A stretch of 64,000 bases of DNA from Actinacidiphila yanglinensis (GTDB lineage Bacteria > Actinomycetota > Actinomycetes > Streptomycetales > Streptomycetaceae): NCBI RefSeq assembly GCF_900107965.1, contig NZ_FNVU01000001.1, forward strand, positions 744,001 through 808,000, given 5' to 3'. Position numbers and translations under genes: made by a program. Positions within the stretch are counted from its first letter, which is position 1. Every line of letters starts with the position of its first letter. This document shows positions 11,475-28,795 of the stretch, in pieces. The notes under the pieces are model-generated. The model was given only the letters and a program-made list of their open reading frames with translations. It was not told the DNA's origin and made no database searches.

Positions 11475-11735
11475 CTCCGGGGTGCCCCTGTCCGCCGGTT
11501 GAGGGACCACCTGCCGGTGGTGGGTTGCGGCCCTGACCCTCCAGGGTGCCCCGTCCTGTGAGTTGCGGGACCTTGCGGTCCGGCTGTGGTTGTTCGCGCA
11601 GTTCCCCGCGCCCCTTGGTGGTTGCCCTCTTTTCGCGGAGGGAGCCGCACATACCCAGGGGCGCGGGGAACTGCGCGCTCAGCAGGCCACCGCCAGGTGG
11701 TCCCTGAACCGGCAGGACGGGGCACCCCGGGGGGT
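11475..11735. repeat. Nested inverted-repeat element between PAC2 gene and coaE
   Basis: A perfect 21-bp inverted repeat has arms 11595-11615 and 11657-11677 with core GCAGTTCCCCGCGCCCC. It encloses a 41-nt loop that can itself pair (CCCTC with GAGGG). Outside it, imperfect arms near 11479-11520 (CCGGTTGAGGGACCACCTG) and 11684-11729 (its approximate complement) extend the structure to about 250 bp. The core motif is common between Streptomyces genes. It probably acts as a terminator for the upstream gene, but that is inference. Confidence 0.8.
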
Positions 11736-12875: not shown

Positions 12876-13814
12876 ATGGAAGTCGTCGTCGTCCTTGTGA
12901 TCATCCTCGCCGTCGTCGGTGCGATCGGCCTGATGAGCAGCCTCAGGGTGGTCAAGCAGTACGAACGCGGGGTGATCTACCGGTTCGGCCGGGTCAACGC
13001 GCTGCCCAAGGAGCCCGGCCCGCGCATGCTGGTCCCCTTCGTGGACCGGATGACGAAGGTCAACATGCAGGTCGTCACCATGCCGGTGCCCGCGCAGGAC
13101 GGCATCACCCGCGACAACGTCTCGGTACGCGTCGACGCGGTGCTGTACTTCCGCGTGATCGACCCGATCCGGGCCACCGTGGACGTGCAGAACTACCAGT
13201 TCGCCATGCTCCAGGTCGCCCAGACCTCGCTGCGCTCCATCATCGGCAAGAGTGACCTGGACGACCTGCTGTCCGGGCGGGAGCGGCTGCACGAGGGACT
13301 GGAGCTCATGCTGTCGACGCCCGCCACCGGCTGGGGCGTGCACATCGACCGGGTCGAGATCAAGGACGTGGCGCTGCCGGAGTCCATGAAGCGGTCCATG
13401 GCCCGGCAGGCCGAGGCCGACCGGGAGCGGCGGGCCCGCATCATCACCGCCGACGGCGAGTTCCAGGCGTCGCAGAAGCTGTCGGAGGCGGCCAGGACCA
13501 TGGACGCCAACCCGTCGGCCCTGCAACTGCGGCTGCTGCAGACCGTGGTGGAGGTGGCCGCGGAGAAGAACTCCACGCTCGTCATGCCGTTCCCGGTGGA
13601 GATGCTGCGGTTCTTCGACCGGGCGGCGGGCGGGTCGGGCGCGGCGGAGCAGGACCCGGCGGGCGCCGCGGCACCCGCCGCGGCACCGGCACCCGCGCCC
13701 GAGGTGGCCGCGGAGACCGAGCCGGCCGCTCTCGCCGAGCCCGACGCCCCGGCCGAACTGCCCCGCGCCGCCGGCCAGCCGCAGATCCCCGACCCGCGCA
13801 GCTCCGAGGAGTAG
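12876..13814 (+). CDS. SPFH/band 7 (slipin-type) membrane protein
   Basis: The product (312 aa) has one N-terminal membrane segment (residues 2-19) followed by an SPFH domain: LRVVKQYERGVIYRFGRV, VRVDAVLYFRVIDP and AQTSLRSIIG are typical of stomatin/slipin proteins. A coiled segment rich in R/E follows, then an Ala/Pro-rich tail. Such proteins assemble in membrane microdomains and often work with NfeD proteins, but no NfeD gene is next to it. The start follows 30 nt after the TPR gene, so the two may be cotranscribed. Confidence 0.88.
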   Translation: MEVVVVLVIILAVVGAIGLMSSLRVVKQYERGVIYRFGRVNALPKEPGPRMLVPFVDRMTKVNMQVVTMPVPAQDGITRDNVSVRVDAVLYFRVIDPIRATVDVQNYQFAMLQVAQTSLRSIIGKSDLDDLLSGRERLHEGLELMLSTPATGWGVHIDRVEIKDVALPESMKRSMARQAEADRERRARIITADGEFQASQKLSEAARTMDANPSALQLRLLQTVVEVAAEKNSTLVMPFPVEMLRFFDRAAGGSGAAEQDPAGAAAPAAAPAPAPEVAAETEPAALAEPDAPAELPRAAGQPQIPDPRSSEE

Positions 13815-23071: not shown

Positions 23072-26005
23072 GTGGCCGACCGACTCACCGTCCGTGGCGC
23101 TCGCGAGCACAATCTCCGGAACGTCTCGCTGGACCTGCCCCGGGACTCGCTCATCGTGTTCACCGGCCTGTCCGGTTCCGGGAAGTCCTCGCTCGCCTTC
23201 GACACGATCTTCGCGGAGGGCCAGCGCAGGTACGTCGAGTCGCTCTCGTCCTACGCCAGGCAGTTCCTCGGGCAGATGGACAAGCCCGACGTGGACTTCA
23301 TCGAGGGTCTGTCGCCGGCGGTCTCCATCGACCAGAAGTCCACCTCGCGCAACCCGCGCTCCACCGTGGGCACCATCACCGAGGTCTACGACTACCTGCG
23401 GCTGCTCTTCGCCCGGATCGGCAAGCCGCACTGCCCGGAATGCGGCCGGCCGATCGCCCGCCAGTCCCCGCAGGCCATCGTGGACCGGGTGCTGGAGCTG
23501 GAGGAGGGGGTCCGCTTCCAGGTGCTCTCCCCGCTGGTGCGCGAGCGCAAGGGCGAGTTCGTCGAGCTGTTCTCCGACCTCCAGACCAAGGGCTACAGCC
23601 GGGCCAGGGTGGACGGCGCGACCATCCAGCTCACCGACCCGCCCAAGCTGAAGAAGCAGGAGAAGCACACCGTCGAGGTGGTGGTGGACCGCCTCACCGT
23701 GAAGAGCAGCGCCAAGCGCCGCCTCACGGACTCGGTGGAGACCGCGCTCGGCCTGTCCGGCGGCATGGTCATCCTCGACTTCGTCGACCTCCCGGAGGAC
23801 GACCCGCAGCGCGAGCGGATGTTCTCCGAGCACCTGTACTGCCCGTACGACGACCTGTCCTTCGAGGAGCTGGAGCCGCGCTCCTTCTCCTTCAACTCGC
23901 CCTTCGGCGCCTGCCCGGACTGCACCGGCATCGGCTCCCGGATGGAGATCGACCCCGAGCTGATCGTCCCGGACGAGCAGAAGTCCCTCGACGAGGGCGC
24001 ACTCGCCCCCTGGTCCGGCGGCATGTCCAAGGGCTACTTCGACAAGCTGGTGCAGAGCGTCGCCAAGGAGGTCGGTTTCCGTACCGACATCCCGTACGCG
24101 GGCCTGCCCGCCCGCGCCAAGAAGGCGCTGCTGCACGGGCACAAGTCCGAGGTCCGGGTCGCCTACAAGACCCGGTTCGGCCGCGAGCGCGCGTACACCA
24201 CGCACTTCGAAGGCGTGATCCCCTACGTCCGCCGTCGGCACAACGAGTCGGAGAGCGACTCCAGCCGCGAGCGCTTCGAGGGCTACATGCGGGCGGTGCC
24301 CTGCCCCACCTGCCAGGGCAAGCGGCTCAAGCCGATCGTGCTCGCCGTCACCGTGCAGGACCGCTCGATCGCCGACATCGCCGCGATGTCGATCAGCGAC
24401 TGCGCGGAGTTCCTGGCCGGCATGAAGCTCGCCGACCGCGACAAGAAGATCGCCGAGCGTGTCCTGAAGGAGGTCAACGAGCGGCTGCGGTTCCTGGTCG
24501 ACGTCGGCCTGGACTACCTCTCGCTCAACCGCGCCGCGGGCACCCTGTCCGGCGGCGAGGCGCAGCGGATCCGGCTGGCCACCCAGATCGGCTCCGGCCT
24601 GGTCGGCGTGCTCTACGTGCTGGACGAGCCCTCCATCGGCCTGCACCAGCGCGACAACCACCGGCTGATCGAGACCCTGGTGCGGCTGCGCGACCTGGGC
24701 AACACCCTGATCGTCGTGGAGCACGACGAGGACACCATCAAGACCGCCGACTGGGTGGTGGACATCGGCCCCGGCGCCGGCGAGCACGGCGGCAAGGTCG
24801 TGCACTCCGGCTCGCTGAAGGACCTGCTGGTCAACGACGAGTCGCTGACCGGTCAGTACCTCTCCGGCAAGCGGGCCATCCCCACCCCGACCGAGCGCCG
24901 CCCGATCGACAGGGCGCGCCGGCTGACCGTGCACGGCGCCCGCGAGCACAACCTCCAGGACATCGACGTGTCCTTCCCGCTGGGCGTGCTCACCGCGGTC
25001 ACCGGTGTCTCCGGATCCGGCAAGTCCACCCTGGTCAACGACATCCTGTACACCCACCTCGCCCGCGAGCTGAACGGCGCCCGCAGCGTCCCCGGCCGCC
25101 ACACCCGGGTGGACGGCGACGACCTGGTGGACAAGGTGGTGCACGTCGACCAGTCGCCGATCGGCCGCACCCCGCGGTCCAACCCGGCCACGTACACCGG
25201 CGTCTTCGACAACGTCCGCAAGCTGTTCGCCGAGACGATGGAGGCGAAGGTCCGCGGCTACCTGCCCGGCCGCTTCTCCTTCAACGTCAAGGGCGGCCGC
25301 TGCGAGAACTGCTCGGGCGACGGCACCATCAAGATCGAGATGAACTTCCTGCCGGACGTGTACGTCCCCTGCGAGGTCTGCCACGGTGCGCGGTACAACC
25401 GGGAGACCCTGGAGGTGCACTACAAGGGCAAGTCCATCGCCGAGGTGCTGGACATGCCGATCGAGGAGGCGCTGGACTTCTTCGAGGCCGTCCCCGCCAT
25501 CGCCCGCCACCTGCGCACGCTCAACGAAGTGGGCCTGGGGTACGTCCGGCTCGGCCAGCCCGCGCCGACGCTCTCCGGCGGTGAGGCCCAGCGGGTGAAG
25601 CTCGCCTCCGAGCTGCAGCGGCGGGCCACCGGCAGCACCGTCTACGTGCTGGACGAGCCCACCACCGGCCTGCACTTCGAGGACATCAGCAAGCTGATCA
25701 AGGTGCTGTCCGGGCTGGTCGACAAGGGGAACACCGTGATCGTCATCGAGCACAACCTCGATGTGATCAAGACCGCCGACTGGGTCGTGGACATGGGCCC
25801 GGAGGGGGGCAACGGCGGGGGACTGGTCGTCGCCGAGGGCACCCCCGAGCAGATCGCGGGCGTGCCGGCCAGCCACACCGGCAAGTTCCTGCGGGACATC
25901 CTCAGCCCGGACGCGGTCAGCGACGCGGCCGTGCCCGCGCCCAGGAAGCGTGCACCGGCGAAGAAGCGCACCCCGGCCCCGCGCAAGCGAGCGGCCAAGG
26001 CGTAG
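23072..26005 (+). CDS. uvrA: UvrABC system protein A
   Basis: The product (977 aa) is the damage-sensing ABC ATPase dimer of nucleotide excision repair. Two ABC modules are present: Walker [13 protein letters not shown] near residue 30 with signature [13 protein letters not shown], and Walker [14 protein letters not shown] near residue 650 with [13 protein letters not shown]. Zinc-binding pairs include CPDC (about residue 281) with CPTC (about 411), and CENC...CEVC near 746-772. The Lys/Arg/Ala-rich tail ([20 protein letters not shown]) may bind DNA. The GTG at 23072 has GGAAAGG 9 nt upstream. Confidence 0.97.
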
Positions 26006-26098
26006 CAGCGGCGAGCGGTCCGGGGCGCCCCCCGAGGGCACTCCGGCGGCGCCCGGGGCGGGGACAGGCGCCGCCGGGGCACTCCGCCGCAGGGGCGT

Positions 26099-26164
26099 CC
26101 AGGTGCGGGACGTAAGGTACGGACGACCGCAAGACCGGCCACGTACCGTACGTCCCGCACCTGG
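26099..26164. promoter_or_regulatory. 23-bp inverted repeat covering the RBS of the Rieske lipoprotein gene
   Basis: Arms 26099-26121 and 26142-26164 are complementary over 23 bp with one mismatch (core CCAGGTGCGGGACGTA), around a 20-nt loop. The right arm runs into GGAG at 26163-26166, the ribosome binding site for the ATG at 26172. It could be the uvrA terminator, an operator, or an RNA structure that masks the start site. There is no T-tract. Confidence 0.75.
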
Positions 26165-26171
26165 AGCGCCC

Positions 26172-26603
26172 ATGTCCCCCGAACTGCCCGCCGCCCGCCG
26201 GACCGTCCTGCGCGGTGCGGCACTGGCCGGCGCCGTCGTCGCCGCCGACGCCGGCCTCAGCGCGTGCGGCGCCAAGAAGAACGGCTCCGCGGACGGCCCG
26301 ACCAAGCCGGTGGACCTCGGCGCCGCCTCGGCGGTCCCGGTCGGTGGCGCCAAGCTCTACCGGGACGACAAGGTGCTCGTCTCGCAGCCGACGCAGGGCT
26401 CCTTCAAGGCGTTCAGCGCGGTGTGCACCCACCAGGGCTGCGTGCTGGACACCGTGGACGGCACCACCGCGTCCTGCCCCTGCCACGGCAGCCAGTTCAA
26501 CGCCGAGACCGGGGCCGTCGTCCAGGGTCCGGCCAGCAAGGCGCTGCCCGCGGTGGACATCAAGGCGGCCGGTGGCAAGCTGACGGCGGGCCCCGCGACC
26601 TGA
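26172..26603 (+). CDS. Tat-exported Rieske [2Fe-2S] lipoprotein
   Basis: The product (143 aa) starts with a twin-arginine signal ([12 protein letters not shown]) ending in a lipobox, LSAC. It is therefore folded in the cytoplasm, exported by Tat and probably anchored by a lipid on Cys36. The Rieske ligands are CTHQGC and CPCHGSQF, giving C-x-H and C-x2-H. It is a single-domain electron carrier, and its redox partner is not encoded nearby. It lies between uvrA and uvrC, and the start codon is 8 nt after a long inverted repeat. Confidence 0.92.
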
Positions 26604-26637
26604 CCGTCATCTGCCCTGGAATGTCGCGGCCCGCCAG

Positions 26638-26643
26638 TAGGGT
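26638..26643 (+). promoter_or_regulatory. Predicted -10 box upstream of uvrC
   Basis: TAGGGT lies 7 nt before the uvrC ATG, but GGAAGG (26644-26649) also lies between them. The start could be served by a very short leader or by a longer transcript from upstream. Confidence 0.3.
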
Positions 26644-26650
26644 GGAAGGC

Positions 26651-28795
26651 ATGGCAGACCCCAGCAGCTACCGACCGAAGCCGGGCCAGATCCCCGACTC
26701 CCCAGGGGTCTACAAGTTCCGGGACGATCACCGCCGGGTGATCTACGTCGGCAAGGCGAAGAGCCTGCGGCAGCGGCTCTCGTCGTACTTCCAGGACATC
26801 ACCAACCTGCACCACCGCACCGCGACGATGGTGACCACCGCCGCGTCCGTGGAGTGGACGGTGGTCTCCACCGAGGTCGAGGCGCTCCAGCTGGAGTACT
26901 CCTGGATCAAGGAGTTCGACCCGCGGTTCAACGTCAAGTACCGCGACGACAAGAGCTATCCCTCGCTCGCAGTGACGATGAACGAGGACTTCCCGCGGGT
27001 CCAGGTGATGCGCGGTCCCAAGCGCAGGGGTGTGCGCTACTTCGGGCCGTACGCCCACGCGTGGGCGATCCGCGAGACCGTCGACCTGCTGCTGCGGGTC
27101 TTCCCGGTCCGCACCTGCTCCGCGGGGGTGTTCAAGCGCTCCGCGCAGATCGGCCGGCCGTGCCTGCTCGGCTACATCGGCAAGTGCTCCGCGCCCTGCG
27201 TCGGCCGGATCAGCCCCGAGGACCACCGCGAACTCGCCGAGGAGTTCAGCGACTTCATGGCCGGCCACACCGGCACCTACCTGCGCCGGCTGGAGCAGCG
27301 GATGAAGGACGCGGCCGACGCCATGGAGTACGAGCAGGCGGCCCGGCTGCGCGACGACATCGAGGCGCTGCGCCGCGCCATGGAGAAGAACGCGGTGGTG
27401 CTCGCCGACGCCACCGACGCCGACCTGATCGCGGTCGCGGAGGACGAACTCGAGGCGGCCGTGCAGATCTTCCACGTCCGCGGCGGCCGGGTGCGCGGGC
27501 AGCGCGGCTGGGTCACCGACAAGGTCGAGGCGGTCGACACCGCCGGCCTGGTCGAGCACGCCCTCCAGCAGTTGTACGGCGACGAGAGCGGTGACGCCGA
27601 GCAGTCCGGCGGCAGCGGCGGGGTGCCCAAGGAAGTGCTGGTCCCGGCGCTGCCGGAGCCGGTGGAGCCGGTGGCGCAGTGGCTCGCCGAGCGGCGCGGC
27701 TCGCACGTCAGCCTGCGGGTGCCGCAGCGCGGCGACAAGAAGGACCTGATGGCCACGGTGCAGCGCAACGCGCAGCAGGCCCTGGCTCTGCACAAGACCA
27801 AGCGCGCCTCGGACCTGACCACCCGCTCCCGCGCCCTGGAGGAGATCGCCACCGCCCTCGACCTCGACACGGCGCCGCTGCGGATCGAGTGCTACGACAT
27901 CAGCCACCTCCAGGGTGACGACGTGGTGGCGTCGATGGTGGTCTTCGAGGACGGGCTGGCCCGCAAGAGCGAGTACCGCCGCTTCCAGATCAAGTCGTTC
28001 ACCGGGCAGGACGACGTGCGGTCCATGCACGAGGTGATCACCCGCCGGTTCCGCCGCTATCTCCAGGAGAAGCAGCGCACCAGCGAGTGGGAGGAGCAGG
28101 ACCAGCACGGCCCCGGGGAGCAGGAGGAGCAAGGGGAGCATGCGGAGCACGGCTCCGAGGAGTTCGGGCGGCAGAACGGCTCCGGGGAGCACGACGAGGC
28201 CGCCGGCGGGCCGATCGACCCGGAGACCGGCCGTCCCCGCAAGTTCGCCTACCCCCCGCAGCTCGTCGTGGTCGACGGCGGGCAGCCGCAGGTCGCCGCG
28301 GCGAGCCGGGCGCTGGCCGAGCTCGGCATAGACGACGTGGCCGTCTGCGGCCTCGCCAAGCGGCTGGAAGAGGTGTGGCTGCCGGGCGACGACGACCCGG
28401 TCATCCTGCCCCGGACCAGCGAGGGTCTGTACCTGCTCCAGCGGGTGCGTGACGAGGCGCACCGCTTCGCCATCGCCTACCAGCGCACCAAGCGCTCCAA
28501 GTCCATGAAGGCCGGCGCCCTGGACACCGTCCCCGGGCTGGGCGCCACCCGCCGGCAGGCGCTGCTCAAGCACTTCGGCTCGCTGAAGCGGCTGCGCGCG
28601 GCGACCGTGGCGGAGATCTGCGAGGTGCCGGGGATCGGCCGCCGCACCGCGGAGACCGTCGTCGCGACCCTGGCCGCCGCGGCACCGGGCGGACCCGCGG
28701 TGAACACGGCGACCGGAGAGATCATCGAAGACAGTGACGGGAAGCCCGCCGGCCCTACGGCGGCCCCGTCCGACCATCGGGGGAACAGCAGATGA
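26651..28795 (+). CDS. uvrC: UvrABC system protein C
   Basis: The product (714 aa) makes both incisions in nucleotide excision repair. The GIY-YIG nuclease is at residues 16-95 ([22 protein letters not shown]), the UVR domain near 220 ([18 protein letters not shown]), the RNase H-like domain from about 415 ([21 protein letters not shown]), and tandem HhH motifs at the end ([31 protein letters not shown]). A low-complexity E/Q/H/G-rich insert of about 50 residues (near 477-530) interrupts the RNase H-like domain. The stop overlaps rapZ as ATGA. Confidence 0.96.

Follow-up and report, generated by a model that had tools for sequence, protein, structure and literature searches.

Why does a long palindrome between uvrA and the gene of a Rieske iron-sulfur protein in the soil bacterium Actinacidiphila yanglinensis run into the ribosome-binding site of the second gene? 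In the window (the whole stretch of 64,000 nucleotides that was analysed) the initial annotation had placed a long stem over the start of the Rieske gene, at 26099-26175. An inverted-repeat search confirmed that the stem is real and exceeds what shuffled sequences give, although its span was slightly off: two 24-nt arms, 96% complementary with one mismatch and separated by a 20-nt loop, lie between 26098 and 26165. The genes and the parts of the palindrome are:

23072 to 26005, + strand: uvrA, upstream of and co-oriented with the Rieske gene (NCBIfam NF001503)
26043-26053 and 26067-26077, + strand: GC-rich inverted repeat without a T run, candidate uvrA terminator (found by eye, unscored)
26093 to 26097, + strand: outer extension of the left arm, pairing with 26167-26171 beyond the bulged G26166 (sequence reading and fold)
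26098 to 26121, + strand: left (5') arm, containing the -10 element (inverted-repeat search)
26142 to 26165, + strand: right (3') arm, entering the Shine-Dalgarno sequence (inverted-repeat search)
26163 to 26166, + strand: Shine-Dalgarno sequence GGAG (sequence)
26167 to 26171, + strand: outer extension of the right arm, its last base directly before the ATG (sequence reading and fold)
26172 to 26603, + strand: Rieske iron-sulfur protein gene, 143 amino acids (Pfam PF00355, E 9.5e-14)

The GGA of the GGAG falls within the right arm, which ends 6 nt 5' of the ATG at 26172; with the five extra pairs of the outer extensions, G26166 being bulged, the stem reaches the start codon and encloses the GGAG. 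None of 200 shuffles folded with equal stability, either as RNA (z -4.95) or as DNA (z -9.25), and the inverted-repeat score of 20 compares with 8 for the best of 20 shuffles. Among the seven inverted repeats listed in the scan of the 64-kb window the palindrome is joint second by score; the top score belongs to a repeat at 11595-11677 whose 21-bp arms match perfectly around a 41-nt loop. A dispersed repeat or mobile element was ruled out because the palindrome is single copy: exact matches of its 16-nt core in the 9.59-Mb genome are its own two arms only. A search of the window against Rfam returned no match at the curated gathering score, hence no known element or riboswitch, and below that score merely hairpin-like microRNA and other chance families.

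A sigma-70 scan found no promoter; its hexamers are those of E. coli, and the -10 element was therefore located by comparing upstream regions. The genus set consisted of 34 Actinacidiphila orthologs from 35 genomes (G010 has no close ortholog; L039-L047 and L054 are repeats of genus genomes already counted, and L085-L118 were left out), and the set from other genera of the family of 57 loci used from the 139 genomes with a match (173 less the 34 of the genus), one taken via its own locus and 56 fetched. A TANNGT hexamer stands 5' of the Rieske gene at 32/34 genus loci. The two others, L021 and L026, have the Rieske gene fused to uvrA (gaps of 11 and -1 nt) and possess neither promoter nor hairpin. 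In the other genera TANNGT was found at 51/57 loci, at distances of 42 to 123 nt from the start (TATCGT in 40/51), the remaining six being without a site by the rule applied. The more general TANNNT is the -10 consensus mapped in Streptomyces avermitilis (PMC8780764). The predicted elements at the window locus are:

26100 to 26102, + strand: CAG, possible upstream promoter element, exactly 10 nt 5' of the -10 element
26113 to 26118, + strand: predicted -10 element TAAGGT, within the left arm, conserved as TANNGT across relatives
26125, + strand: transcription start as predicted from spacing, 7 nt beyond the -10 element and within the loop

The CAG stands exactly 10 nt 5' of the -10 element in 24/32 genus promoters vs 1/51 in the other genera, and at 30 of 1216 other offsets in the genus promoters; there is only a hint that CAG-N10-TANNGT could be a PafBC-type promoter of the Rieske gene. 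The usual distance between -10 element and start puts the start at 26125. Since the left arm holds the -10 element, transcription would begin near this position within the loop, and mRNA made from the gene's own promoter would not include the left arm. A start downstream of the repeat had been named beforehand as an objection to masking; the predicted start falls inside the repeat and not 3' of it. At three loci of other genera behind uvrA (L125, L159 and L166) a TANNNT stands about 13 nt 5' of the putative Rieske start, so that the Rieske mRNA would there be leaderless.

What the two arms would do to translation was calculated as the predicted cost of opening the ribosome docking site (-18 to +6) in two RNAs, one reading through from uvrA and the gene's own RNA from 26125. 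The predicted cost is 31.7 kcal/mol in the readthrough RNA vs 7.0 kcal/mol in the own RNA, a difference of 24.7 kcal/mol (34.2 vs 8.5 kcal/mol at 28 °C). The energy results shift little when the start is placed 1 nt earlier or 3 nt later. The own RNA of the window gene is less stable than 200/200 shuffles (z +2.61). By a similar measure, in which 72 nt of extra upstream sequence were added to each gene-like start, 5/32 other gene-like starts in the window exceeded 5 kcal/mol, with a maximum of 12.0. At the gene-like starts at 12876 and 60713 (both + strand), 72 nt more of upstream sequence raises the opening cost of the ribosome site by 12.0 and 10.4 kcal/mol, respectively.

We propose, with a probability of roughly 0.5, that the palindrome acts as a translational insulator, constructed around the promoter of the Rieske gene itself. 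With the -10 element in the 5' arm and the start in the loop, one palindrome would serve both promoter and mask. RNA from the own promoter would contain the 3' arm only, leave the ribosome site open and be translated, whereas uvrA readthrough RNA would contain both arms, form a stem of some 28 pairs that extends to the start codon, and stay untranslated. The Rieske gene would thereby follow its own promoter and ignore transcription of uvrA. We infer that such readthrough RNA exists, that its translation is blocked and that there is a selective reason for the arrangement. The masking suggested by the initial annotation, in which uvrA readthrough RNA folds and blocks the ribosome site, finds support from the folding predictions and the relatives as far as readthrough RNA is concerned; for Rieske transcripts from the own promoter it would not hold, the left arm being predicted absent from them.

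The contrast recurs in the genus. The difference exceeds 5 kcal/mol at 18/32 genus promoters vs 2/51 in other genera, with means of 6.3 and 1.1 kcal/mol, respectively; at 14/32 genus loci it is 5 kcal/mol or less and at 9/32 below 2 kcal/mol, which is almost no masking. When the -10 element lies within 70 nt of the start codon the counts above 5 kcal/mol are 18/25 in the genus vs 0/22 in the others; they become 19/25 vs 1/22 with the transcription start moved by -1 nt, 18/25 vs 1/22 with +3 nt, 17/25 vs 2/22 with longer flanks and 16/25 vs 5/22 with a docking site from -15 to +15. A narrow docking site (-12 to +3) gave just 4/25 vs 0/22, from which it follows that in most relatives the stem adjoins the ribosome site instead of covering it. 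The effect depends on the left half that belongs to each locus: the genus mean fell from 6.3 kcal/mol with the own left halves to 3.4 with swapped and 2.0 with shuffled ones (Wilcoxon, p 0.001 and 6e-5, respectively, values that are optimistic because related species are not independent), and the other genera showed no such effect (1.1 vs 1.2). The readthrough RNA folds with z below -2 at 10/25 genus loci vs 0/22 others, and the own RNA is open (z above 0) at 23/25 and 21/22, respectively. The plain unpaired probability of the Shine-Dalgarno sequence is higher in the own RNA at only 12/32 genus loci. Arm-against-arm duplex ranks are mixed, the own right arm being best for 6/32 left arms. On a quick tree, the long branches of which are doubtful, at least 10 changes of the masking trait are seen.

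The conserved -10 element, the energy contrast, the effect of the own left halves, the structured readthrough RNA beside an open own RNA, the straddling repeats described below and the fused-gene species without promoter or hairpin speak for the insulator. Counted against it are the unmasked genus loci, the mixed unpaired probability of the Shine-Dalgarno sequence, the result with the narrow docking site, the mostly unmasked uvrA-tandem loci of other genera, the background starts in the window, the lability of the trait and the fact that two species live with the Rieske gene fused to uvrA.

At all 34 genus loci the end of uvrA, with its C-terminal GKFL-type motif, lies just 5' of the Rieske gene, and in the window uvrC begins downstream, at 26651. 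uvrC has a motif of its own, TGTC-N12-TAGGGT (26622-26651), 7 nt before its ATG, which resembles the PafBC/RecA-NDp motif; TGTC-N11-13-TANNNT stands directly 5' of an ATG at 19/30 genus loci. It also resembles BTGTCV promoters with a 12-nt spacer, which in S. avermitilis are enriched at repair genes (PMC8780764). Among the 37 named loci (L048-L084), the start of a PfkB-type kinase gene (Pfam PF00294 at one of them) lies less than 300 nt away on the opposite strand at 11, where therefore no same-strand readthrough is expected; the kinase start is farther away at 7, uvrA stands in tandem at 18, and neither is found at 1. These counts weaken the contrast with a divergent upstream neighbour in Streptomyces and, slightly, the case for the insulator. 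The seven uvrA-tandem loci measured in other genera (L119, L124, L126, L128, L129, L131 and L178; L129 and L131 called tandem via their named copies L062 and L048) yielded only one above 5 kcal/mol (L129, 5.3), which indicates that the tandem position by itself is insufficient for a mask.

An ungapped repeat straddles the predicted start at 18/32 genus loci, and 13 of these 18 repeats score above all 20 shuffles. Complementarity of the arms, the loss of which in relatives would by the initial annotation have spoken against masking, is kept in many related genomes, not in all, and often in a shifted register. Clear paired changes are two only by eye (L034/L035, C-G to A-T; L019/L022, C-G to G-C in shifted register), few being visible because the registers shift between clades. 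The loop of the L036 hairpin is C(UUCG)G, and GCAA loops are present at four of the five loci of another group (L034, L035, L120 and L122); both are shapes typical of stable RNA hairpins. In 4/18 (L031, L034, L120 and L122) the ungapped arm ends 17-36 nt 5' of the ATG, and tight masking of the ribosome site is thus not universal. In the Streptantibioticus group (L119, L128 and L131) an 11-bp stem begins 9 nt downstream of the first base of the -10 element, a position that would place it at the 5' terminus of the own mRNA and not at the ribosome site.

Could the palindrome act as DNA instead, bound over the -10 element by a dimeric repressor or activator that controls initiation? Its length and its overlap with predicted -10 element and start would suit such an operator, and the wobble pairs (23 G-U vs 15 A-C), an asymmetry that does not separate RNA from DNA function, are compatible with a role at the DNA level. 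An operator would have conserved half-sites at fixed spacing, and in the 18 repeats that straddle the start different portions of the left half are mirrored and the loops range from 3 to 57 nt; moreover, the genome contains no second full site and the effect is centred on the ribosome site. We therefore consider an operator unlikely. It had been suggested from the sequence that with a promoter within or near the repeat the palindrome could be an operator: the promoter does appear to lie inside, to judge from the predicted -10 element in the left arm, but changing arms and loop lengths disfavour the second half of the suggestion.

It is also improbable that the hairpin ends uvrA transcripts and overlaps the next promoter incidentally. 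It is located behind uvrA, and at L019, L020, L022-L024, L034, L038 and L121 the intergenic gap of 67-76 nt leaves scant room for a second hairpin. The T run expected of such a terminator is absent at the window locus (a single T among the 8 nt that follow the right arm), a consensus terminator scan was also empty, and in all 18 straddling repeats the 8 nt past the right arm contain 0 to 3 T. The missing run is not decisive because in S. avermitilis most transcript ends are without the U-rich motif, which occurs at only about 25% of them (PMC8780764). Against termination also speak the other GC-rich repeat (26043-26077), which is closer to uvrA, and the extension into the ribosome site, which is unnecessary for that role.

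Least probable, in our estimate, is a functionless palindrome in which template switching has repeatedly placed a copy of the promoter arm in the leader. In its favour, the mirror is perfect over 21 nt in L122 and shorter in its relative L120, the mirrored part shifts among species, and the trait is labile. Against it, the own leader RNA stays open at 23/25 genus loci, and the increase in opening energy seen at the ribosome site depends specifically on the own left halves and is absent from other genera sharing the promoter.

The insulator has a precedent in bacteriophage T4. For gene e of this phage the design is proven: the DNA that encodes the 5' strand of the hairpin contains a late promoter, the longer RNA hides the ribosome site and gives 100-fold less lysozyme, and the short RNA without the 5' strand is translated; the leaders of I-TevI, soc and 49 are of the same kind (PMC3014915). 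The best reading is that the Rieske leader may work like that of gene e. The long Rieske RNA is predicted to sequester Shine-Dalgarno sequence and start codon, the short one to be open at the ribosome site (7.0 kcal/mol), and the left arm of the hairpin contains the conserved -10 element, the putative start being placed by spacing. The Rieske locus differs in belonging to a housekeeping neighbourhood of a bacterial chromosome, known here from sequence and folding predictions, and in having an ordinary TANNNT promoter where T4 has a phage late promoter.

Elements of the IS10 type protect their transposase gene from outside transcripts, the RNA from outside being folded and untranslated. RNA from outside is predicted to behave likewise at the Rieske locus, which differs in that the palindrome is single copy and no mobile element is present. 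With an intrinsic terminator the palindrome shares a stable GC-rich stem behind a gene (uvrA); it differs in having no T run, in its 20-nt loop, in entering the next ribosome site and in overlapping a promoter.

There is close to an even chance that the palindrome represents the T4 gene e device in a chromosomal, genus-wide form, in which promoter and ribosome mask share one palindrome. The principle is already known from the phage; that a bacterial genus should have kept it seems novel. Among the papers listed by searches of an open-licence library, none describes the locus or a chromosomal counterpart. A simple rule, a stem whose 5' arm contains a -10 element and whose 3' arm contains the ribosome site, could be used to search for further cases. 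If the proposal is true, the arms evolve under the constraints of promoter, pairing and translation simultaneously, and a downstream gene is made unresponsive to transcription of its neighbour with no terminator involved. Insulation of genes is usually credited to terminators; such a hairpin would provide it through translation and would explain how RNA can cross the border between two genes without protein output.
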